Assembly: GCA_018648805.1 (NCBI GenBank) | Contig: JABGQM010000017.1 | Span: forward strand, 1-64,000 | Length of the DNA: 64,000 bases | Reading direction: 5' to 3' | Source of the DNA: Verrucomicrobiota bacterium | GTDB lineage: Bacteria; Verrucomicrobiota; Kiritimatiellia; UBA8416; JABMPJ01 | In this document: in pieces, positions 34,810-47,227 of the stretch | Position numbering within the stretch: position 1 is the stretch's first letter | Layout: each line of letters begins with the position of its first letter | Program-made: the position numbers and the translations under genes | The notes under the pieces: generated by a model | The model's database searches: none | Seen by the model: only the letters and a program-made list of their open reading frames with translations | What the model was told of the DNA's origin: nothing

Positions 34810-36285
34810 TTACTGTCGCCACACGGTATTGGCCCGCACGGCCAGGTCCATGGCTTCGGCCGGGCCGCTACTGCCAAAGGGGTACGGTAACGGCCGGATA
34901 TGGTTGGCGTCAATCGTATCAAGTACGGGCGTGAAAATATCCCAGGCCGCGGCGAGTTCTTTGCTGCCGATAAAGAGGCTCTTTTCGCCCTGAATAACAT
35001 CCAGCAGGAGGTCTTCGTAGGCATCCGGGATGAGTTCAGAGAAGGCGGTGTTGTACTGCATGTCGAGGTCGCGCGATTCCATCTCCAATCCGAGCCCGGG
35101 AACCTTGCTCGTGATGCGGAAGATGATGGCCTCATCGGGCTGGACGCGAATGACCAGCTCGTTGGTATGCGGGCAGCCTTCCTCCTCGCAGAACACGCAG
35201 TTATCGATCTCGCGGAAGAGAATGCGTATCTCGGTGGTCTTGCGGTCCAGCGCCTTGCCGGCGCGCAGCAGAAATGGCACACCCGCCCAGCGCTCATTGT
35301 TGATGTGCAGCAGCGTGGCGGCATAGGTGCAGGTCAGTGAGTCATTCGGCACGCTATCGTCATCGACGTAGCCCACCTGGGCAGGCTGGCCCGCCGGGGC
35401 GGCCGTATATTGCCCCAGGACGATGTCCTCAATCCCGACGGGTGTGATGTGCTCGAGGAGGCGTACTTTTTCTTTGCGGATCGAGGCGGAGGTATGGTGC
35501 GAGGGGGGCTCCATGGCCACCAGTGACACCATCTGCAGGAGGTGGTTCTGCACCACATCGCGCACGATGCCGTACTGGTCGAAATAGCCGCCACGGCCTT
35601 CAATGCCGATCGGTTCAGCCCAGGAGATTTGGACACTCTGGACGTGTTCACGGCTCCACAGGGGCTCAAAAATACGGTTGGCGAAACGCAGAACCATCAG
35701 GTTCTGGATCACTTCCTTCCCCAGATAGTGGTCGATTCGGAAGATCTGGTGCTCGGAGAAGACCAGCCCGAGCTCACGTACGAGCTCGTCAGACGAGCTG
35801 CGGTCATGCCCGAACGGCTTTTCGATTACGACGCGTGACCAGGGCGAGGTCTCGCCGCAATAGACAAACCCGGCGTTGCCGAGCGCGCGTGCCACGTCGA
35901 GGAAAACCGAGGGGGGGATGGCCAGGTAGAACAGGCGGTTGACGCGGCTGTGGTCTTCGAACTGTTGCAGATGCGTGAAGAGGTCGAGAAACGCATCGGT
36001 CGAGCCATACTGGCCGCTGACATAGTGACACATGGAGAGAAACTTTTCCATTTTCTCCGCGCATGAGGCCTCGCCGGGGGTATAGCGGCAGGTCAGGTGT
36101 TCGGTGATACGCTCCCGGAATTCCGCATGGCCCATTTCCGAGCGGGCGAATCCTGTAATCGTGAGCTTTTCCGGCAGAAATCCCTGGCAGTAGAGCGCGA
36201 ACAGTGCAGGGAAAATTTTGCGTTTGGCCAGGTCGCCCGAGGCCCCAATGACAACAATCGACAGTGTATCCAACTCTGACTTCAC
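34810..36285 (-). CDS. zwf: Glucose-6-phosphate 1-dehydrogenase
   Basis: Encodes 491 aa, standard length. It oxidises glucose 6-phosphate to the lactone, making NADPH. The NADP fold has GASGDLAKRKIFPAL (15-29) and the active-site RIDHYLGKE motif is intact with its catalytic His. The start is GTG; the SD GAGGAG is formed by the last codons of dsbD, whose stop lies 1 bp or so before, so translation is coupled. Pairing with a disulfide reductase suggests NADPH supply for thiol chemistry. No gnd or pgl is nearby. Confidence 0.96.
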   Translation of the reverse strand: MKSELDTLSIVVIGASGDLAKRKIFPALFALYCQGFLPEKLTITGFARSEMGHAEFRERITEHLTCRYTPGEASCAEKMEKFLSMCHYVSGQYGSTDAFLDLFTHLQQFEDHSRVNRLFYLAIPPSVFLDVARALGNAGFVYCGETSPWSRVVIEKPFGHDRSSSDELVRELGLVFSEHQIFRIDHYLGKEVIQNLMVLRFANRIFEPLWSREHVQSVQISWAEPIGIEGRGGYFDQYGIVRDVVQNHLLQMVSLVAMEPPSHHTSASIRKEKVRLLEHITPVGIEDIVLGQYTAAPAGQPAQVGYVDDDSVPNDSLTCTYAATLLHINNERWAGVPFLLRAGKALDRKTTEIRILFREIDNCVFCEEEGCPHTNELVIRVQPDEAIIFRITSKVPGLGLEMESRDLDMQYNTAFSELIPDAYEDLLLDVIQGEKSLFIGSKELAAAWDIFTPVLDTIDANHIRPLPYPFGSSGPAEAMDLAVRANTVWRQ

Positions 36286-36288
36286 TCG

Positions 36289-37881
36289 TTACTCCTCGTC
36301 GTTTGGCAATAGCACTACGTATGTCGGCAGGCCAATCGCATCAAAACGGTCCAGCATCGCCTTGGTCTCGGCTTGGGCAATGTCTTCGGCCTGCACCTTG
36401 ACCCGCACGAAATTGTCGAGGACCGCCACGACGGCGGGATCCTTGAACGTGGTCTTATCCATCTTGAGGCAGTTCTTACACCAACTGGCCCAGAAATCGA
36501 TAAAGACGGGCTGTTGGGTCTTGCTGGCCTCCAGCAGAGCGTCGTCCAGTGATGTCAGCCAGCCGCTCTCGACCTGTTCCTTTTGCGCGCTAGTGACCGC
36601 CTCGCGGGCGCCAGCGGTGCGGGAAAGCAGGAGTGAAACGCCCAGCTTGCCGTACCAGAGGGCGAAGCCGATGATGATGACGCCGAAAGCTATTTTAACG
36701 CGCTCCATCCACTTGCCCGGCTTGGGCAGGAAGGAGAGTCCGGCTCCCGCAAAAGGCCAGGGCAGAGCCATGCCGACGCCCAGCAAGAACGGAAGCAGTA
36801 GCCCCACGCTGTTGCCGCGCGTGTAGAGGTCGGCTGCCAGCAAGAGCACCGAGATCAGGACCGGGGCGACGCAGGCACCGGCCAACAGGGCGGCGATGCC
36901 GCCCAGGAGCAGGGCCTTGATGAAGCCGCCCTTGCGCTTGGGGCCGGCAGTGGCCTGGAAGCGTGACAGGTCGATCATGAAGACGTCAAACATCGCCAGA
37001 GCGAGTGCGATGAAAATAACCGCAATGGAGAGGTTGAACCAGGGCGAGGCGTTGAGGGTGCCGAACTTGGCCCCGGTCAGGATGACCACCAGGCCCAGCA
37101 CGCCATAGACCAGCGCAATGCCCACCCCATAGGCGGCGCCCAAGGCAAACCCTCGTGCGCGCGAGCCGGCCTGTGCCCCGGCACCGATAATGGCAATGTT
37201 GATCGGAATCATGGGCAGCACGCAGGGCGTTAGGTTGAGCGCCAGCCCGCCAAGAAGGATCAGCACTATGACCAGCCAGGCGCCACGGGATTCAAGCGCC
37301 CTGCGGAGGGGGTCATCCTGCAGGCTGCCGCTGCGAGCCTCCTCGAGAAAGGTGATGAATGGCTCGCCCTTGAGATAACCGGCATGCGTACCGGCGATGC
37401 GGAAGGCATCCAGGCCGGTCATCCAGGAGGCGGCCTCCGTCACCGCAGGGGACGACGGCGGGACATCCGGAACGGGCACGGTTGCAGCCCCGCCCAGCTG
37501 AAAGGTCTCGGTCATGGGGCGAAAGCAGATGGAGTCATTACAGGCCTGGTAGCCGACCACGAGCGGAATGCCGCCCGATGGTACCTCCGCGGGACGATAG
37601 GTGAACGTTACGTCGTGATCGTATACGCCGACCTTCTCGCCGCTGAAGGGATCGTCCTTCAGCGTGGCGGTGGGGGCTTCGAGGGGGGTCAACGCTACCG
37701 GCGGGGCCGCGATGGCGACTTGGTCGGCATAGACGTAGTGATGAGGCGGGACGGCAAACCGGACCACCACGGTGGGGTGTCCGGTCGCACCTTCCAGCGA
37801 TGCGGAGACGGCAACTTCTTCGATCTGGGCGTGGAGGCCGGGCACAATGGCCAGCATGAACAGGGCCAAGAAACGTCGCAT
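36289..37881 (-). CDS. dsbD: Thiol:disulfide interchange protein DsbD
   Basis: Encodes 530 aa. A signal peptide (MRRFLALFMLAIVPGLHA) leads a periplasmic DsbDalpha-like domain with the redox pair in GYQACNDSICFRP. Eight hydrophobic helices (about 225-440) hold the membrane Cys in NLTPCVLPM and GACVAPV. The C-terminal thioredoxin domain has WASWCKNCLKMD. It moves electrons from cytoplasmic thioredoxin to periplasmic thiol proteins. The ATG at 37881 follows GGGAGG. It is translationally coupled to zwf. The thioredoxin-fold proteins at 39-42 kb are possible partners. Confidence 0.95.
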   Translation of the reverse strand: MRRFLALFMLAIVPGLHAQIEEVAVSASLEGATGHPTVVVRFAVPPHHYVYADQVAIAAPPVALTPLEAPTATLKDDPFSGEKVGVYDHDVTFTYRPAEVPSGGIPLVVGYQACNDSICFRPMTETFQLGGAATVPVPDVPPSSPAVTEAASWMTGLDAFRIAGTHAGYLKGEPFITFLEEARSGSLQDDPLRRALESRGAWLVIVLILLGGLALNLTPCVLPMIPINIAIIGAGAQAGSRARGFALGAAYGVGIALVYGVLGLVVILTGAKFGTLNASPWFNLSIAVIFIALALAMFDVFMIDLSRFQATAGPKRKGGFIKALLLGGIAALLAGACVAPVLISVLLLAADLYTRGNSVGLLLPFLLGVGMALPWPFAGAGLSFLPKPGKWMERVKIAFGVIIIGFALWYGKLGVSLLLSRTAGAREAVTSAQKEQVESGWLTSLDDALLEASKTQQPVFIDFWASWCKNCLKMDKTTFKDPAVVAVLDNFVRVKVQAEDIAQAETKAMLDRFDAIGLPTYVVLLPNDEE

Positions 37882-37912
37882 GATGCCTCCCTCTTTCGCG
37901 TGACCCGCTATC

Positions 37913-38434
37913 TCAGGCCTTGGCCACCAGGTCGGCCGGCATGTTGAAGGCGCGTGTGCCCAATTCACGGTCGATCATGAGCAGGCCACTGCCATGGCTG
38001 CCGGCCAGCTTGAGTTGATCGATGATCTCGCCGACACTCTCCTCTTCCTCAACCTGTTCTGTGACATACCACTGCAGAAAGATGGCCGTGGCATTGTCGT
38101 TCTCTTCGCGGGCTGTGGCAACGAGCGCGTTGATAAGGCCGGTGACCTGTTGCTCGTGGGCCAGCGTATCGTCGAGCGCCTGCGCCAGGGAGTCGAAGTC
38201 CGCGGGCGGTTTCTCGATCGCCTCCAGGATGACCTGGCGCCCCTGGCTGCTGACATAGTCGTAGAAACGCCAGACGTGCGTCATCTCCTCCTGGGCCTGC
38301 ACGAAGAACCAGCTTGATGCGCCGCGCATGCCCTGCGTGCCTGCATAGCTGGCCATTGCCAGGTAGAGGTAGGCCGAATACAACTCGGCGTTGATCTGCT
38401 TATTCAGTGCTTCTGTCATCTTGTCTGTGATCAT
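37913..38434 (-). CDS. ftnA: Bacterial non-heme ferritin
   Basis: Encodes 173 aa, normal for FtnA. It is a four-helix iron storage subunit that assembles into a 24-mer shell. Ferroxidase-centre residues are visible: E17 region (INAELYSAYLYLAM), EEMTH in helix B (Glu and His) and E/Q residues in AREENDNATAIFLQWYVTEQVEEE. GGGAG lies before the ATG. It is directly downstream of rubrerythrin (14 bp) on the minus strand, in the tail of the thioredoxin-fold/rubrerythrin gene series. Confidence 0.96.
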   Translation of the reverse strand: MITDKMTEALNKQINAELYSAYLYLAMASYAGTQGMRGASSWFFVQAQEEMTHVWRFYDYVSSQGRQVILEAIEKPPADFDSLAQALDDTLAHEQQVTGLINALVATAREENDNATAIFLQWYVTEQVEEEESVGEIIDQLKLAGSHGSGLLMIDRELGTRAFNMPADLVAKA

Positions 38435-38448
38435 AGCTTTGTTACTCC

Positions 38449-39021
38449 CTACCAGTTCTCTCCCAGCAATTCAAAGTAGGCCTGCGGATGGGCACAGGCG
38501 GGGCATATTTTCGGGGCACTGGTGCCGGTGTGCACATAGCCGCACTTGATACAGCGCCAGGTCACGGGCTCGTCACGCGTGAAAACCTTCGCGTTGTCGA
38601 TGTTGGCTTTCAGCTCCAGGTAGCGCTTTTCATGCTGCTTCTCGGCCACGGCAATGGAGGCGAAGAGCGTCGCAATCTCGTCAAAGCCCTCCTCACGCGC
38701 CGTCTTGGCAAACCCGGGATACATGTCGGTCCACTCGTGGTTCTCGCCCGCGGCCCCGGCCGCCAAGTTGTCGGTCGTATCGCCCACTACACCAAACGGG
38801 AAGGCGGCCGTGATCTCGACGTCGCCACCGGTCATCTTCTTGAAGAGCGATGAGGCGTGCTGCTTCTCCTGGTTCGCCGTCTCCTCAAAGACGTCGGCGA
38901 TCTGCTGAAAGCCCTCTTTGCGGGCCTTCTTGGCGTAGTAGGTGTAGCGGTTACGGGCCTGTGATTCTCCCGCAAACGCGGCCATCAGGTTCTTCTCTGT
39001 CTGGCTTCCGTTAAGATCCAT
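38449..39021 (-). CDS. rbr: Rubrerythrin
   Basis: Encodes 190 aa, typical rubrerythrin. The diiron four-helix domain has [29 protein letters not shown] and [12 protein letters not shown] (ExxH pairs). The C-terminal rubredoxin domain has CIKCGYVH and CPACAHPQ. It reduces hydrogen peroxide with rubredoxin-derived electrons. The ATG at 39021 follows GAGGAAG. It lies between the YyaL-like gene and ferritin, 86 bp and 14 bp away, on the same strand, so it probably belongs to the redox operon read from the promoter near 42.1 kb. Confidence 0.96.
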
Positions 39022-39107: not shown

Positions 39108-41279
39108 CTACCTTTCTGCGGCTGCACGGCCATCAAAAAATTGGTCGGGGTCGGTTATGGGTTGGCGGCAGGAAAATCCCTCGCAGACATACAGGGCCGC
39201 AAGCCCGTCAACAGGAGCGCGATTGCGCAGCAGCGGGATACGCACCAGGTCCGATTCAGAGAGTGTCGCGGGTGTGGCCGCCACAATGACGCTGTTTGGC
39301 TGAAAGCGTGAACGGATGGTGCGCAGGAAAGCCTGGTAGGCGGGGTGGGTCTTGTCGCCCACCAGGACCAGCTCACGCGGTTGGGACAGCATGAACTCCA
39401 TCGCCATGAGGGCATAGGTGAAGCTGCGCGGTTGAGGGCCGGCGGCGGTGGCCATGGCGTTAAGGAGAGGGTCGGCGGCCAGGCGCAGCGCCTCGTTGCC
39501 GGTCAGGCGGTAGAGCCGCAGCATGGCCGTCAGGGCGATGGCGTTGCCGGAGGGGATGGCGCCGTCGGCCATGGGGCGGCTGGGTGTCAGGAGGTCGCTG
39601 CGGCCTACGGGCGCAAACGTGAAGCCGGGGGCCTTGCCGTCGGTGAACTCGGCCTGGATGGCCGCCACGAGGGCGTTGGCCCGGTCGAGGTGAGCGGGGT
39701 CGAACGTGGCCTCGTACAGATCGATATGGGCGTTGGCCAGGTTGGCGTAGTCATCCAGGACCCCGGCCGGGCCGGCAATGCCCTGGCGCCACGAGCGCAG
39801 GAGTTTCTCGCCGGGTGACATGTGCCGGTCGATGAATGCCGCGGCGCGCTGTGCCGCGGCGACAAAGCGGGGCGTGTCAAAAGCGGTCCCGGCGCGGGCC
39901 ATGCTGCTGATCATCATGCCGTTCCAGGCCGTGATGACCTTGTCGTCGGTCAGCGGCGGAACGCGTGTAGCGCGCTGCGCGCGCAGCGTGGCGCGTGCGG
40001 CATCAATCCTGCGCCCCAACGCGTCGGGATCAAGGCCTTGATCGGCCGCCACCTCGCGGCGCGATAGTGGCACATTCAGGATGTTGTGTCCCTCAAAGTT
40101 GCCGGCTTCGCTGGCGCCGAAGAAGTCCGCCACCTCGCGTCCGGGCTCGTCGCCCAGGACCTCCAGAAGCTCGGCCCGGTCCCAGACATAGAACTTGCCC
40201 TCGACGCCCTCACTATCGGCGTCCTGGGCCGAGTAGAAGCCGCCCTCGGGGCCGGTCATATCGCGCAGCACGTAGTCGAGTGTCTCGGTCGCGATACGGC
40301 GGTAGAACGGATCGCCCGTGACCTGCCAGGCCTCGACATAGACCCGTGCCAGGAGGGCGTTGTCATAGAGCATCTTTTCGAAGTGGGGTACCAGCCACTG
40401 CGCATCGACCGAGTAGCGGTGAAACCCGCCGCCGACCTGGTCATACATGCCGCCGCGCGCCATGGCTTGTAGCGTGTGCGTCACGATGCCCAGCGTGGCC
40501 TTGTCGCCTGTGACCTGGTGGCGGCGCAAGAGGAAGGCCAGTGTGCCGGCGGGCGGAAACTTGGGTGCCCTGCCAAACCCACCCCAGCGGGCGTCGTACT
40601 GGGCGGCCAGGGGAGCGGTTGCGCTGGCAAGGAGGGCCGCCGTAGGGGCGGCGCCGGCGGTCGTATCGGGTTGCAGGGCACGGCTAACGGCCGCTGTCAG
40701 GCGGCCGGCATCTGACGTGATATCGGCGCGGCGGGTGCGCCAGACCGTTGCAATGTTGTTCAGAAGCGATGTGAAGCCCGGGCGTCCATAACGGTCTTCA
40801 GGCGGGAAATAGGTGCCCCCGAAGAACGGCTGGCGGTCGGGGGTCAGGAAGACAGAGAGCGGCCAGCCGCCGCTACCGGTCATGAGCTGCACGGCCGTCA
40901 TGTAGATGCCATCGATGTCAGGGCGCTCCTCGCGGTCGACCTTGATCGCGATGAAATGCTCGTTCAAGACGGCGGCGAGGTCCTCCTGCGAGAACGACTC
41001 GTGCTCCATGACATGGCACCAGTGACAGGAGGAGTAGCCGATCGAGAGAAAAACAGGCTTGTCCTGGCGCGCCGCCTCGGCGAAGGCCTCGTCGCCCCAC
41101 GGGTACCAGTTAACCGGGTTGTGCGCGTGCTGCAGCAGGTAGGGGCTGCTCTGTCCGGCCAAGCGGTTGGTATGGGATGGGGGCGCACTCACAGGCTTTG
41201 TGGATTCCGGACGCGATGCCGCACGACAGCCTGTTCCGCCGGCGATGAGCAGGGCCGTGGCGATGCCAAGTCGCGCCAT
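39108..41279 (-). CDS. Thioredoxin-domain lipoprotein of the YyaL/DUF255 family
   Basis: Encodes 723 aa. A lipoprotein signal ends in LIAGGTGC (Cys18). The N-terminal thioredoxin-like domain (about 37-200) has the redox motif in [13 protein letters not shown] (C85, C88), the hallmark of the DUF255/spermatogenesis-associated 20 family. The rest is a long alpha/alpha-toroid domain (about 250-690, with [17 protein letters not shown]). Family members are usually cytoplasmic, so the lipoprotein signal is odd and suggests the cell envelope. It is 39 bp downstream of the small thioredoxin gene. Its biochemical role is not established. Confidence 0.92.
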
Positions 41280-41318: not shown

Positions 41319-41834
41319 CTACTCCGCGGGAGCAGCGGCGGCCTTGGCCTTGGCCTGCGCATCCGCGATCAGTTTCTGTAGGTGTTTCACATAGGCTTCG
41401 GGGCCGCCGCGCTGGTAGCCGGTGCGGCCAATCACGTTGCCGGTGGCGTCGAGCAGCAGGACGGTGGGGAAGCCACGCACGCCATACTCCTTGGCCAGTT
41501 TATCATTCTGAGCCTTGACGGTGGCCGGGAGCGTCTTGCGCGAGGGGAAGTCCGCCAGGAAAAGGATGACGTTCTTCTTGGCGTAGGCCTGGAACGGCTT
41601 CTTGCCAAAAACTTCCTTGTCGAGCTTGATGCACCAGCCACACCAGTCGGAACCGGAGAAATCGGCCAGGATGGGCACCTTGCGCTCGGCCGCGAGTTTC
41701 TTGGCCGCTTCAAAATCGGTCAGCCATGCGGCATGGGTGTCGGCGGCTTTCTGGCTGCCTTCCTCGGGGGCGGCGTATCCTATCGTCGTGGCCAGCATCA
41801 GGGTGACCAGGGCCAGTCGTGTGAGCTTGTGCAT
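41319..41834 (-). CDS. Exported thioredoxin-family protein
   Basis: Encodes 171 aa. A signal peptide (about 1-21, ending in GYAA) is followed by a thioredoxin fold with the redox site DWCGWCIKLD (C65, C68) and the cis-Pro in VRGFPTVLLLD. The C-terminus is Ala/Lys-rich. It resembles DUF899/thioredoxin_7-type periplasmic reductases. DsbD, encoded 3.5 kb away, could keep it reduced. AAGGAG precedes the ATG. It starts 10 bp after the 76-aa gene and is followed by the YyaL-like lipoprotein, forming a redox operon. Confidence 0.92.
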   Translation of the reverse strand: MHKLTRLALVTLMLATTIGYAAPEEGSQKAADTHAAWLTDFEAAKKLAAERKVPILADFSGSDWCGWCIKLDKEVFGKKPFQAYAKKNVILFLADFPSRKTLPATVKAQNDKLAKEYGVRGFPTVLLLDATGNVIGRTGYQRGGPEAYVKHLQKLIADAQAKAKAAAAPAE

Positions 41835-41844
41835 GGTGTACTCC

Positions 41845-42075
41845 TTATTGTTGAACAGAGGATGCGGGAGTCAAGTCCCACTGTCCTCTTAATCTGTGGA
41901 CCTCGCGCTCCTGTTCCGCGCGTCCACGTATCTTGTAGGCGCAATCCCGTATCACGCCCAGCAGCACGGCAGAGCCATCGTCGTGGCACCGCGCTTCCCC
42001 CTGGTCGGCCAGGATGGTCAGCTGACGGGCCAGTTCCAGTGACTTCGTGATCAAGCTGCTCGATGATCGTGCCAT
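41845..42075 (-). CDS. Small conserved-looking hypothetical protein
   Basis: Encodes 76 aa. Sequence is mostly helical: ITKSLELARQLTILADQGEA, then the turn ARCHDDGSAVLLGVIRDCAYKIRGRAEQE. Two Cys (30 and 45 region) could pair or bind metal. I have no named family for it. AGGAGC precedes the ATG. It is the first gene after the sigma-54 type promoter at 42113-42128 and lies 10 bp before the exported thioredoxin gene, so it heads the redox operon. Confidence 0.75.
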   Translation of the reverse strand: MARSSSSLITKSLELARQLTILADQGEARCHDDGSAVLLGVIRDCAYKIRGRAEQEREVHRLRGQWDLTPASSVQQ

Positions 42076-42112
42076 GCTTCGCTCCTGAGATCCAGTTCGT
42101 TCAATGCTAAGA

Positions 42113-42128
42113 CGCTAGATATGTGCCA
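42113..42128 (-). promoter_or_regulatory. Sigma-54 type -24/-12 promoter for the thioredoxin-fold operon
   Basis: Reads TGGCACATATCTAGCG on the minus strand: perfect TGGCAC, 10 bp between the GG and GC doublets, and TAGC in place of TTGC. Initiation would fall about 25 bp before the start of the 76-aa gene. A sigma-54 activator gene ends 180 bp upstream on the same strand. Confidence 0.6.
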
Positions 42129-42214
42129 ATAGGGCAAGCGGGTGGCATATTGGTGTAAGTGACTGGTGATAACAGTGTTATGGAGTTATATAACCTGTCC
42201 CGTACGCCGTGATG

Positions 42215-42265
42215 GTGTCTCACAAGGGGGGGTGACCTGCGGCAGGTTGACAGATCATGAGACAC
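42215..42265. promoter_or_regulatory. Inverted half-sites GTGTCTCA ... TGAGACAC, possible enhancer region
   Basis: Two perfect complementary 8-mers at 42215-42222 and 42258-42265 surround a second small dyad, ACCTG-CGG-CAGGT (42235-42247). They lie about 90-140 bp upstream of the sigma-54 type promoter at 42113-42128. The same stretch is also just downstream of the sigma-54 activator gene and could instead be its transcription end. Confidence 0.45.
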
Positions 42266-42310
42266 GATGGGGAGTGCCGATTGCCGATTTACGGTGGCCC
42301 GGAGACAAGC

Positions 42311-44038
42311 CTAGAGGTCGACATCTTCGAGGAAGCGGTAGAGTGTGGCGCGCGACACACCGAGGCGCTTGGCTGCCTCCAGCTTGTTGCCATCTGTGGC
42401 GCGGATGGCTTCGCGCACGGAGCCGAGATTAAGTTTACGCTTCCGTTTGCCGTTGCCCAGGCCGGGGGCGCCGGCGCGGGGCGGCGGGAAATGTTCAGGC
42501 AGGATGGTGTCCGACTTACACTTTACAAGCGCGAACTGCAGCCAATTCTGTAGCTCGCGCACGTTGCCGGGCCAGGCATAGGAGAGCAGCATATCCATGG
42601 CGTCCTCGGAAATTCGGATCTCGCCGCGGGATCGGGCCTTGAGCGCGAGCTTCAGGATGTGTTCGGCGATCATCGGAACATCGGTACGCCGGTCGCGTAG
42701 TGGCGGCAGCCAGAGCGGGACCACGCTCAGGCGGTAGTAGAGGTCATCACGGAAGCGGCCGTCGGCAATCTCCTCCTGCAGGTCCTTATTGGTGGCGCTG
42801 ATCACGCGTACATCGACTGTGACGGTCGTCTCGCCGCCAACCCGTTCGAAGGTGCCTTCCTGCAGCACGCGCATAAGTTTGACCTGCATGGTGGGCGAGA
42901 TATCGCCAATTTCATCGAGGAAAATGGTGCCGCCGTCGGCCAGTTCGAAGCGCCCCTTCTTATCTCTGACGGCCCCTGTGAAGGCGCCCTTGACGTGACC
43001 GAACAGCTCGCTTTCGAGCAGGGATTCCGGCAGGGCGCCGCAGTTGATCGGCACAAAGAGTCTGTTGCCGCGATGGCCCTCGTTGTGGATCGCGGCAGCG
43101 ACGAGCTCCTTGCCGGTGCCGCTTTCGCCCTGGATCAGAACGGGCACATCCGTATCGGCCAGGTCACGGATGAGGTCGTAGATCTCGAGCATCTTCTCGT
43201 CATGCCCGATGATGCCCGAGAACTGGTTGATCTCGCCCACGCGCCGGGCCAGGGCGCGCTCGCGCGTCACATCGTGAAGCGAAAGCAGAACACCTCTATC
43301 ACGCCCATCCACATCGGTCATCATGCGCAGGGCGGTGTCGACCGTGCGCCGTTCACCGTTCTTGGTGTTGATGTCGATCTCGCGCTTGACCGTTCCGGGG
43401 CCGGTCGGGACGGGGTCTTCGCAAAAGAGGCACTTGCCGCCGCAGAAGCGTCCAGGGAAAATGTCGTGGCAGTCGCGACCAATGATCTCATCGCGTGAGT
43501 AGCCGGTGATGACTTCGGCGGCCTTGTTGAAGTGGAAAATGCGGCGCGACATGTCGTGCGCCAGGATGCCATCCGAGATGTTGTCGAGCAGCATGCCCTC
43601 GCAGTCGCGCGCAAACTGCAGGGCGGTCCGGTAGCCCTTGTCGAAGAAGTCATCCACCAGGCGTTTGATCTCGTCGCGTGCCTGGCGAAAGGCTGACAGA
43701 ACAATCTCCTCGCTGCCGGTCACCTCACTCGGGCTATTCAGGTTCCAATGAACGTTGAGCGGGAACCCGGGCAGCACGGGAACCTGGTCGGCGATGTCAC
43801 GGCATAGTGTTATGACCACGTCAAAATCGCGCTCCGCCATATCCTCGAGCTTGCGGGGTTCGGCCCTGGAGAGGTCGATGCCGACTTCGGCCATCACCTT
43901 GATGGCCGTCGGATGCAACGTCCCCAGCTCCAGCCCGGCGCTGGTGATCTCGACGCCGTCATGCGGACGGGCCTGGGCAAAGGCTTCGGCCATCTGGCTG
44001 GCACAGGCATTTTTTTGGCAGAGGAAGATCAACTTCAT
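42311..44038 (-). CDS. Sigma-54 activator with ArsC-like N-domain and PAS domain
   Basis: Encodes 575 aa. Domain 1 (1-130) is a low-molecular-weight phosphatase/arsenate-reductase fold, but the P-loop reads CQKNACASQ: Cys7 is kept while the invariant Arg is Ala13. The second ArsC Cys is Val86, and HWNLNSP replaces HWGFDDP. Domain 2 is PAS (150-265) with a Cys cluster (C190, C199, C203, C206). Domain 3 is the AAA+ core with GESGTGKE (304-311) and GAFTGA (351-356) for sigma-54 contact. A FIS-type HTH ends the protein (SRATLYRF). There is no receiver domain. The ATG at 44038 follows CAGGAA and lies 2 bp after cysE. It looks like a redox or oxyanion sensor. Confidence 0.94.
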
Positions 44039-44040
44039 GG

Positions 44041-45012
44041 TTAGATTCCTGCCCCATGATCGTTCCATGGGCCGTTGGCGATCATCCAGCGTCCGTCCGC
44101 CTGGCGGATGTGTGGACGTGGCTGCTGGTTATACACCTTGGAGCCCGGGGGCACCGAATGGGTCAGCCAGACGTTGCCGCCGATGACCGAGTGGTGGCCT
44201 ATCTCGGTGGCCCCGCCCAGAAGCGTGGCGCCGGCGTAGATCACGACGTGATCCCCCACGTTGGGGTGCCGCTTGATGCCCTTGACCAAGTGGCCTTCCT
44301 CGTCCTTTTCAAAGCTGAGCGCCCCCAGGGTGACGCCCTGGTAGAGCTTGACGTGGTCTCCGATTTCCGCGGTCTCGCCGATGACGACCCCCGTGCCGTG
44401 GTCGATGAAGAAGCCCTGCCCGATATGGGCGCCGGGATGTATGTCGATTCCGGTGACCGAGTGGGCGTGCTCCGACATGATGCGCGGAATGAGCGGAATC
44501 TGCTCATGATACAGCACATGCGCAATGCGGTGCACGATCACGGCATACACGCCCGGGTAGCTCATGACCACTTCCATGGTTGAGCGCGCGGCGGGATCAC
44601 CTTCGTAGGCGGCCCGTATGTCGTGCTGCAGGCGGTCTTGGATCTCCGGGATCTGCTGGATCAGGGCGGTCACGGCGGCTTCCGCGTTCTTTTCGCAATC
44701 ATCGCAGTCGTGACAGTCATCCACCGTGCACTGGTACTCAAGCGCGCAGCGGATCTGGCCTTTGAGTGCCATGGCGGTTTCGCGCAACTGGTGCTTCAGA
44801 TCGTCGGTGAGACTGGCCTCGGATACGGGGCCGTGTCCATGGCAGCCGGGGAAAAGGACGGAGATGAAGTCATCCAGTACACGGCAGACTGCTTTCTTCC
44901 CTGGCAGGTTCAGCCCCGACTCCGTATTGACCGAATGGGGGCATTCCCGGCAGCGAACCAGGTGGGTGATCGCATCGGGCAGCAGTTCTTGTATCCATGT
45001 TTCCTGAGTCAT
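44041..45012 (-). CDS. cysE: Serine O-acetyltransferase with Cys-rich N-terminal half
   Basis: Encodes 323 aa. It makes O-acetylserine from serine and acetyl-CoA for cysteine synthesis. The C-terminal left-handed beta helix has DIHPGAHIGQGFFIDHGTGVVIGETAEIGD and HPNVGDHVVIYAGATLLGG with the catalytic His. The N-terminal half is unusual: CRECPH, AVCRVL, FPGCHGH, and then CTVDDCHDCDDC, nine or so Cys in all. It lies 2 bp before the ArsC-like/sigma-54 regulator, so they are co-expressed. No cysK is adjacent. The Cys clusters may bind metal or sense redox state; this is inference. Confidence 0.93.
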   Translation of the reverse strand: MTQETWIQELLPDAITHLVRCRECPHSVNTESGLNLPGKKAVCRVLDDFISVLFPGCHGHGPVSEASLTDDLKHQLRETAMALKGQIRCALEYQCTVDDCHDCDDCEKNAEAAVTALIQQIPEIQDRLQHDIRAAYEGDPAARSTMEVVMSYPGVYAVIVHRIAHVLYHEQIPLIPRIMSEHAHSVTGIDIHPGAHIGQGFFIDHGTGVVIGETAEIGDHVKLYQGVTLGALSFEKDEEGHLVKGIKRHPNVGDHVVIYAGATLLGGATEIGHHSVIGGNVWLTHSVPPGSKVYNQQPRPHIRQADGRWMIANGPWNDHGAGI

Positions 45013-45047
45013 AGCGACCCCTGTTGTAAACGTCCGGGGCGTAATAT

Positions 45048-46904
45048 TCAACCTTGAACGCCGATGTGTTGCGAACAACGTCCGGGTTGGTCGTCCGGAT
45101 TGCGCGTAACGCGCACCAGCACGCGGTCGGCTCCCAGGTTGCAGCAGCCCATACCGATCAGCAGCCGGCTGGCCCGGTTGTCAGGCAGGCAGGCGATCTC
45201 GCTGATCCCCAGGCCCTCGCGGCGGCAAAGCTCCTTGAAGTCGAGCAGTGTGAAGAGGTGGATATTGGGTGTGTTGTGCCATTCATAGGGCAGGGCGCCG
45301 CCTTGCGGCATACGGCCGCGGCCCAGCTGCAGGCGATGTGACCAGTTGGCAAAGTTGGGAAAGCTGACGATGCCCTCCCGCGCCACACGCAACATTTCGC
45401 GCAGCACCAGGAGCGGCTTATGGACCACCTGGATCGTCTCGCACAGCACGGCGCAGTCGTAGCTGTCATCAGGGATCATACTCAATCCATCGTCCATATC
45501 GGTCTGGAACATGTCGTGCCCATCGTCCAGGCAGCGGATCAGGTGGGCAATATCGATGTCGATACCCATACCGCTTGTGCCGCGTTGTTCGCGCAGGTAT
45601 CCCAGCAGCTCGCCGCTGCCGCACCCCAGGTCCAGTACGCGTGCCTCGCGCGGCACCATCCCTGCGATCAGCTCAAATTCGCGCCGCCGTGCCGCGGCAT
45701 GGATGTCGCCGCCCGAAGCGGGTTCAAAGTGGCCTCCCGAGGAGACCCACGGCAGGAACGCGCGCACCACTTCCGACATGTGCTCAATGTCAATCAGGAA
45801 GGCATCATGGCCATGCGGGGCATGCAGGCGACAGAACGATACGGGTTTGCCGACCTGCAGCAGAGCGCGGGCCATCTCCCACGACTGCTCGGGCGGGAAG
45901 AGCCAGTCCTCGCTGAGGGCCACGATGAGGACCTTGGAGCGGATGCGCTCGAAGGCCTCGGCCAGGCTGGCGTGACGGTCGTGCACGTCGTACTCGTCCA
46001 TGGCCTGCGTGATATGCAGGTAGGAGTTGGCATCGAAGCGTTGCACGAACTTGGCCCCCTGGTGTTCGAGGTAGCTCTCCACCTGGAAATCGGAACGGAA
46101 CCCATGGTCGGCGTCTTCCGGCGCCTCTGCTCCGTCCACACGCCGGTTGCGCCCAAACTTATCGGTCATGATGCCGGGCGATAGGTAGGTAATGTGGCCC
46201 ACCTTGCGCGCCAGGGCCAGGCCCTGGTCCGGGCCTTGTCCGCTGGCGTAGTAGTCGCCCTGGTTCCAGTGGGGATCGCTTGTGATGGCCGAGCGGCCGA
46301 CGATGTCAAAGGCCAGAGCCTGGGCCGACAGGGAGCCGGCGGATGCCACGCAGATGCCGCGGCGCACCTGGGTGGGGTAGCGTAGCAGCCAGTCCAGCAC
46401 CTGCATGCCGCCGAAGGAGCCGCCGATCACGGCGGCCACGCGTTCGATCCCGAGCTGCCTGAGGAGGCGCACATGCACATCCACGATATCCGATACCGCA
46501 ATGGGTGGGAAGTTTGCCCCGTAGGGAAGCCCCGTGTGCGGGTTGGGCGAGGAGGGTCCCGTGGTGCCGCTGCAGCCGCCCAGAGTGTTGGCGCAGATCA
46601 CGTGATAGAAATCGGTGTCGATGCCGCGGCCCGGCCCGATCATCTCGTCCCACCATCCGACCGGGCCATCGGATGTGTCGAGGCGTCCGGCCACGTGTGC
46701 ATCGCCGGTGAGGGCGTGGCAAATAAAGATGACATTGTCGCGTTCGGGTGACAGGGCCCCGTAGGTCTCGTAGGCCACGTCGATCGCGGACAGGTGTTCC
46801 CCGCCGGCGAGGGGCAGCCCCTCGGGCGGAAGGTCCAGCGCCAGGTGATGCGTCTGCACCACGCCGACGCCAGCGGCGGTCCCGGTTATGTCAGTCTCGT
46901 CCAT
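45048..46904 (-). CDS. metX: MetX-MetW fusion (homoserine O-acyltransferase plus methyltransferase-like)
   Basis: Encodes 618 aa in one frame. Residues about 15-395 are an alpha/beta-hydrolase MetX: GGSFGGMQ nucleophile (S163), SEDWLFPPEQ with the Asp, and APHGHDAFL with the His. A short linker (WVSSGGHFEPASGGD) follows. Residues about 415-605 are MetW, a SAM-binding Rossmann domain with VLDLGCGSGELLGYL, DMDDGLSM and SFPNFANW. MetX activates homoserine for methionine synthesis; MetW is a partner normally encoded by the adjacent gene. The ATG at 46904 follows AGAGGG, 5 bp after cutA. Methionine and cysteine activation genes therefore sit side by side. Confidence 0.95.
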   Translation of the reverse strand: MDETDITGTAAGVGVVQTHHLALDLPPEGLPLAGGEHLSAIDVAYETYGALSPERDNVIFICHALTGDAHVAGRLDTSDGPVGWWDEMIGPGRGIDTDFYHVICANTLGGCSGTTGPSSPNPHTGLPYGANFPPIAVSDIVDVHVRLLRQLGIERVAAVIGGSFGGMQVLDWLLRYPTQVRRGICVASAGSLSAQALAFDIVGRSAITSDPHWNQGDYYASGQGPDQGLALARKVGHITYLSPGIMTDKFGRNRRVDGAEAPEDADHGFRSDFQVESYLEHQGAKFVQRFDANSYLHITQAMDEYDVHDRHASLAEAFERIRSKVLIVALSEDWLFPPEQSWEMARALLQVGKPVSFCRLHAPHGHDAFLIDIEHMSEVVRAFLPWVSSGGHFEPASGGDIHAAARRREFELIAGMVPREARVLDLGCGSGELLGYLREQRGTSGMGIDIDIAHLIRCLDDGHDMFQTDMDDGLSMIPDDSYDCAVLCETIQVVHKPLLVLREMLRVAREGIVSFPNFANWSHRLQLGRGRMPQGGALPYEWHNTPNIHLFTLLDFKELCRREGLGISEIACLPDNRASRLLIGMGCCNLGADRVLVRVTRNPDDQPGRCSQHIGVQG

Positions 46905-46909
46905 AGCGG

Positions 46910-47227
46910 TTATCCCTCTGTTGTGGTCTGTGCCCTGGCCCATGCCGCATAGGGCCCTGTCACGTCGTCGATGCGCATCTGTATGATCTCGGGGACCTCG
47001 TAGGGATGTTCCGCGGCCAGGACCGCTTTCAGGGCATCGGTTCGTTCATCGGTCGTCTTGATCAGCAGCAGGATCTCATCGCCCTGCTCCAGCGCATCTT
47101 TCCAGCGATAGGTGCTCGTGATCGGCACCGCCTGCACACAGGCCGCCAGGCGTCGCTCAACAAGCAGATGCGCCAGGCGGTCGGCCTGTTGGCGGTCTGC
47201 TACGGTGGTCTGTATGAGATTCAACAT
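46910..47227 (-). CDS. cutA: CutA divalent-cation tolerance family protein
   Basis: Encodes 105 aa, normal for CutA1, a trimeric ferredoxin-like protein. Conserved segments are ERRLAACVQAVPITSTYRWKD and HPYEVPEIIQMRID. It was linked genetically to copper tolerance in E. coli, but its general role remains unsettled. The ATG at 47227 was chosen over an upstream start at 47278 to match family length; the SD is weak. It is followed 5 bp later by metX-metW on the same strand. Confidence 0.94.
   Translation of the reverse strand: MLNLIQTTVADRQQADRLAHLLVERRLAACVQAVPITSTYRWKDALEQGDEILLLIKTTDERTDALKAVLAAEHPYEVPEIIQMRIDDVTGPYAAWARAQTTTEG

Follow-up and report, generated by a model that had tools for sequence, protein, structure and literature searches.

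A one-component sigma-54-dependent activator, bound at paired TGTCTCA half-sites, is predicted with a probability of about 0.8 to drive the neighbouring operon headed by the gene of a 76-aa protein (P76); its input would most likely be a cysteine-rich PAS domain, with an ArsC-like domain as an accessory. The operon lies in the window, the 64-kb stretch of a Verrucomicrobiota contig that was analysed. This reading draws on what can be observed in the sequences: the domains of the activator, a conserved promoter and conserved sites, their near-fixed spacing, their relocation with the operon, the co-occurrence of activator and P76, and further redox targets. The P76 operon and the further targets appear to constitute an oxygen/ROS/NO defence under the sigma-54 activator.

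Control region of the P76 operon

The activator gene and the P76 gene are separated by an intergenic region of 235 bp that contains three elements.

42113..42129, minus strand: sigma-54 -24/-12 element TTGGCACATATCTAGCG (GG-N10-GC, as in 20/20 P76 loci)
42216..42222, minus strand: promoter-proximal half-site TGAGACA, ~94 bp upstream of the -24 GG (17/20 loci)
42257..42264, minus strand: distal half-site TGTCTCAT, 136 bp upstream of the -24 element (17/20 loci)

The plus-strand letters of the half-sites are GTGTCTCA (42215-42222) and TGAGACAC (42258-42265). The TTGGCACATATCTAGCG element is the sole match in the 64-kb window to the family -24/-12 consensus at two or fewer mismatches, and the transcript of the P76 operon is predicted to start at ~42103 with a 5' leader of ~28 nt. 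An earlier note on this DNA had described a minus-strand -24/-12 element with exact GG-N10-GC spacing, half-sites about 90-140 bp upstream of it, and an activator gene ending 46 bp before the half-sites; each agrees with what was found (the element at 42129-42113, half-sites at the distances listed, and an activator stop codon that ends at 42311). The GG-N10-GC element with TGGCAY is located near the gene and is kept in relatives, and RpoN is encoded in the genome, as befits a sigma-54-dependent promoter. A TTACAC block at ~42148-42165 (minus strand), between the half-sites and the promoter, is kept across the genus and is possibly an IHF-like site or the site of a second regulator.

Genes of the operon and its neighbourhood

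The operon and the gene upstream of the activator comprise the following features.

41845..42075, minus strand: P76, a 76-aa protein without a named family, predicted to fold as a two-helix hairpin (homologs next to the activator in several phyla)
41319..41834, minus strand: exported thioredoxin-fold protein, DsbH-like (Thioredoxin_7; DisulfRedDsbH 3e-31, under the NCBIfam cut-off)
39108..41279, minus strand: YyaL/DUF255 (Thioredox_DsbH) lipoprotein-like protein (PF03190 3.7e-78)
38449..39021, minus strand: rubrerythrin (RuberyRbr 294.8 bits, cut-off 200)
37913..38434, minus strand: ferritin (PF00210 3.8e-38)
36289..37968, minus strand: DsbD-type thiol:disulfide interchange protein (DsbD_TM, DsbD_N; synteny)
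34810..36285, minus strand: glucose-6-phosphate dehydrogenase (G6PD), last of the conserved gene block (sequence reading; synteny in relatives)
44041..45018, minus strand: CysE-like serine acetyltransferase (cysE/EpsC models; synteny), ending 2 bp before the activator gene

The earlier note had listed the 76-aa gene, exported thioredoxin, YyaL-type, rubrerythrin and ferritin genes, all of which are present; its operon holds through ferritin and stopped short of DsbD and G6PD. Homology suggests that the true start of DsbD is ~30 codons in, near 37881, and G6PD is probably part of the P76 operon. In the genus and in some other families the cysE-like and activator genes remain a pair. Beyond this pair, MetX (homoserine O-acetyltransferase) and MetW are joined in one 631-aa frame (45048-46943, minus strand), an arrangement that the genus shares with G008.

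P76 has no match in Pfam or NCBIfam and was not found in the plasmid collection. Its predicted model (pLDDT 87) gave no significant match in a fold search (best E 0.73), and the weak, non-significant matches include half-bundles of encapsulated ferritin and rubrerythrin. An E-x3-H pattern and acidic residues are kept on the two-helix hairpin in the family alignment.

Domain structure of the activator

42311..44038, minus strand: sigma-54 activator with ArsC-like, Cys-rich PAS, AAA+ (GAFTGA) and Fis-type HTH domains (Pfam, NCBIfam, 59-member alignment)

An alternative upstream start of this gene is possible at 44068. The AAA+ domain (Sigma54_activat, PF00158, 1.5e-71) contains the GAFTGA loop and is followed by a C-terminal Fis-type HTH domain (PF02954, 2.4e-07), so that the protein has the domains of a sigma-54 enhancer-binding protein and is predicted to activate sigma-54 at upstream sites. 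The earlier note had correctly named it a sigma-54 activator and had overlooked its ArsC-like and Cys-rich PAS domains. The N-terminus is LMWPc/ArsC-like (arsC_pI258_fam, 2.1e-32, 112 bits vs an equivalog cut-off of 174.3), and the predicted model of the N-terminal half of a relative matches Bacillus subtilis ArsC with a TM score of 0.90 (by target length) as well as heme- and LOV-type PAS folds (DosP, FixL, LOV).

Of the ArsC residues C10 and R16 (CX5R P-loop) and C82/C89, the window's activator keeps C10 and C82 and has alanine for R16 and valine for C89; the P-loop arginine and C89 are lost in its genus. The ArsC catalytic residues are intact in four relatives (L044, L045, L049, L050), and in the alignment C10 is kept in 27/59 and R16 in 24/59 activator members. 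Very probably the ArsC-like domain has degenerated to an accessory module in this genus and is not an arsenate reductase. Conservation of the PAS motif C-H-x7-C-x3-C-x2-C reaches 51-58/59 members, a figure inflated by the collection of distant members partly via this very motif; among whole-protein orthologs, which are free of motif-based selection, one family (f2: G005, G020, G027) has lost it. The genome of the window has 9 to 11 strong sigma-54 activator matches, and the motif is absent from the other sigma-54 activators checked in the same and related genomes. By its domain make-up the protein represents a distinct subfamily of sigma-54 activators, which would control a regulon of its own.

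Conservation and relocation of the sites

Activator orthologs occur in 21 relatives and are near full length in 19 of these, and P76 is present in 20/57 genomes. The gene order activator-P76-thioredoxin-YyaL-rubrerythrin-ferritin-DsbD-G6PD is kept wholly or partly in relatives. Activator and P76 co-occur in 19/20 P76 genomes (Fisher p = 2.5e-10 over 57 genomes, with kinship overstating their independence). The -24/-12 element and the two TGTCTCA half-sites form conserved islands, and among five members of the genus the sites stand out against diverged flanks. GG-N10-GC is located 39-112 bp before the P76 start codon in all 20 P76 loci; a proximal TGAGACA (at most one mismatch) is found 87-98 bp above the -24 element in 17/20, mostly 91-98 bp above the -24 T, and a distal TGTCTCA (at most one mismatch) ~113-148 bp above -24 in 17/20, with distances that cluster at 121-126, 136-137 and 142-148 bp, spacings that differ by about a helical turn. 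The promoter was thus observed in 20/20 regions, promoter plus proximal site in 17/20 and all three elements in 17/20, compared with 1.75%, 0.07% and 0/10000 per region in dinucleotide shuffles, a partly circular test in that consensus and thresholds were chosen after inspection of the data. Less circular are the natural relocations, the genome-wide pattern with its backwards control and the motif in Deltaproteobacteria and others. Family f2 has lost most proximal sites and keeps activator, P76 and promoter.

Relocations separate the activator from the operon in four genomes. In G003, G008 and G015 genes other than P76 come after the activator; in G001 the activator's contig continues for 561 bp, which contain no P76. 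All four genomes have the P76 operon on a different contig, where it retains the promoter together with one or, more often, both of the half-sites, and after the activator gene of G003 no such promoter or half-sites were found. Since they stay with the operon when the activator is elsewhere, the sites can be assigned to the operon. Absence of the -24/-12 element and half-sites from relatives that share the gene order, which the earlier note had named as evidence against its proposal, was not encountered, as they are kept order-wide; its proposal that the activator controls the redox operon is supported, at the level of sequence, by this conservation, by relocation together with the sites and by co-occurrence.

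Distribution beyond the order

A contig profile search with the N-terminal alignment yielded 59 activator loci, spanning Lentisphaerota/Kiritimatiellia, Planctomycetota, LCP-89, Calditrichota, Zixibacteria, SAR324 and Deltaproteobacteria. P76 homologs are near the activator in ~21 distant loci, and the Deltaproteobacteria, SAR324, LCP-89, Calditrichota and Zixibacteria relatives adjoin P76; usually a sigma-54-like element precedes the distant homologs by 27-83 bp. In 14 P76 upstream regions of 320 bp from Deltaproteobacteria, SAR324 and Victivallales there are 38 exact half-sites vs 0.41 expected, several of the distant-locus sites being 83-94 bp from the -24 element. The LCP-89, Calditrichota and Zixibacteria loci keep promoter and P76, and TGTCTCA was not found in them. 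Distant P76-headed operons resemble Tmc-type complexes with CheY-type regulators, Hdr-like complexes with a macro-domain protein, or cytochrome bd; the names Tmc, Hdr and bd come from sequence reading, and only the response regulator, a nitrate-reductase-gamma-like protein and Macro are confirmed by Pfam.

Several individual loci may be mentioned. P76 homologs are directly upstream of apparent cytochrome bd oxidase genes at L134:6786-8341 and L143:4324-5832, and L134 has six TGTCTCA/TGAGACA sites within ~190 bp of P76. In a Victivallales bacterium (L132:4517-4992) the activator gene and P76-ferritin-rubrerythrin point away from each other, and the intergenic region between them contains both half-sites. 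A TGTCTCA/TGAGACA pair just upstream of the activator gene (L085:4944-4972) may reflect autoregulation in that species.

These data bear on the alternative that the operon is sigma-54-dependent and the half-sites are real, with another regulator binding them and the activator a mere neighbour. Each genome has several sigma-54 activators, and binding of the half-sites by this one is a prediction; against that, the adjacency of activator, P76 and motif recurs in several phyla, the two genes co-occur across genomes, the half-sites stay with the P76 operon on relocation, and the ArsC-PAS make-up is in none of the other activators checked. Another regulator is unlikely.

Further candidate targets

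An architecture pattern (TGAGACA, 78-98 bp, YTGGCAY-N7-GC) searched in 32 genomes was found at 20 places vs 2 with a backwards control. P76 promoters account for 9/20 of these places, and matches are concentrated in activator-bearing genomes (12/22 vs 1/10, p = 0.024, with independence overstated by kinship). The other places precede the following genes.

G022: AhpC-type peroxiredoxin
G014: desulfoferrodoxin (superoxide reductase), then hybrid-cluster protein
G007: hybrid-cluster protein (Hcp)
G018, a genome without P76: thioredoxin-YyaL-flavodiiron-type genes
G011, two places: DUF6132 with cupin and ArsP_1 permease
G027: Hsp20
G000 and G003: secreted CarboxypepD_reg protein
G003 and G022: two secreted proteins of one look

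Hsp20 and the secreted CarboxypepD_reg and repeat proteins have no obvious link to redox functions. The CarboxypepD_reg gene is a second candidate target in the window's own genome (G000:C62, L172:3455-3606), behind three half-sites and a sigma-54 element, TTGGCATGCATCCTGCAT, that is 89 bp below the nearest half-site. A similar arrangement is seen at G003:C223. The three half-sites in L047, L052 and L172 suggest binding of an oligomer. Paired half-sites searched alone gave several chance matches (L173, L175, L176, L177), which fall within genes or lack a sigma-54 element, and matches at L144 and L156 that were rejected as long hairpin-like repeats.

The identity of the targets helps to decide what the operon responds to. 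A response to thiol or sulfur status (cysteine supply), not to oxygen itself, would suit the position of the activator directly after the cysE and metX-metW genes and the reducing power from thioredoxin, DsbD and G6PD. It is nevertheless quite improbable, as rubrerythrin, ferritin, superoxide reductase, Hcp and flavodiiron proteins are not sulfur-status genes and many families have no cysE link. Less probable still is an arsenic or oxyanion response, with the ArsC domain sensing or reducing arsenate: the ArsC-like fold, the catalytic residues intact in some relatives and the ArsP_1 permeases that adjoin sites in G011 and G007 would fit it, whereas the P-loop arginine and C89 are lost in the window's genus, many members have lost the catalytic cysteine, the P76 operon is without arsenic genes and most targets belong to oxygen/ROS/NO defence. 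GG-N10-GC alone is common, and the promoter consensus searched alone genome-wide did no better than its backwards control, but a chance origin of the -24/-12 match and half-sites is refuted by the 20/20 conservation, the near-fixed spacing, the relocations and the 20 vs 2 pattern search.

Proposed mechanism

Under the preferred reading, control by the sigma-54 activator through its PAS domain, the N-terminal region would hold the activator inactive until the Cys/His site of the PAS domain is oxidised or binds a ligand, and the AAA+ domain would then be released. Oxygen, peroxide or NO would most likely be sensed by the Cys-rich PAS domain (C-H-x7-C-x3-C-x2-C), through a metal/Fe-S or thiol site; this assignment of sensor and signal draws on motif conservation and on the targets. 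The activator, presumed from sequence to bind the TGTCTCA half-sites, would be positioned at the pair ~93 bp and 113-148 bp upstream of -24, from where the freed AAA+ domain would contact RNA polymerase-sigma-54 at 42113-42129. The operon would thereby be switched on, yielding P76, exported thioredoxin, YyaL, rubrerythrin, ferritin, DsbD and probably G6PD. The half-sites are 29-52 bp apart, which is unusual for a Fis-type HTH dimer and counts against this explanation. So do the loss of the PAS motif and of most proximal sites in family f2, the LCP-89, Calditrichota and Zixibacteria loci in which TGTCTCA was not found, and the targets with no clear redox role.

More tentatively, and with somewhat less than even chances, the activators may form an undescribed multi-phylum family in which the PAS C-H-C-C-C site senses O2, peroxide or NO and P76 is a dedicated partner, as a feedback regulator or metal-binding helper. 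Such a family would wire varied operons of anaerobe defence and respiration (rubrerythrin/SOR/Hcp, cytochrome bd, Tmc-like, Hdr-like) to one signal. P76 may bind metal, given its E-x3-H pattern, acidic residues and weak, non-significant ferritin/rubrerythrin fold matches.

Comparison with known systems

No account of an ArsC-PAS-sigma-54 protein was found in the papers searched. In anaerobes, control of oxygen defence is usually ascribed to repressors such as PerR and Rex. A dedicated sigma-54 oxygen-defence activator, with a specific motif as its candidate sensor, a defined DNA code and P76 as a conserved putative partner protein, would make the oxygen response directly testable in uncultured Kiritimatiellota/Lentisphaerota-type bacteria and in sulfate reducers.

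NorR is an NO-responsive sigma-54 activator of flavorubredoxin. The window's activator resembles it as a one-component sigma-54 activator with a sensor before the AAA+ and Fis-type HTH domains, with several upstream sites and with reactive-species defence targets that include flavodiiron-type genes. It differs in its sensor, which is ArsC-like plus Cys-rich PAS and not GAF (no GAF match in Pfam; 317.9 bits vs the NorR equivalog cut-off of 476), and in its DNA motif. Thioredoxin-coupled ArsC of the pI258/B. subtilis type shares the fold and part of the sequence of the N-terminal domain, which differs in being fused to a sigma-54 activator, in scoring below cut-off and in having lost catalytic residues in the genus and many other members. 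In the main text of its description, the Desulfovibrio vulgaris sigma-54 regulome includes no ArsC-domain activator and no TGTCTC/GAGACA motif (PMC4641369). Its activators adjoin the conserved sigma-54 promoters under their control, the arrangement seen at the P76 operon, and its targets include electron-transport operons (DVU3142/Ohc) (PMC4641369).
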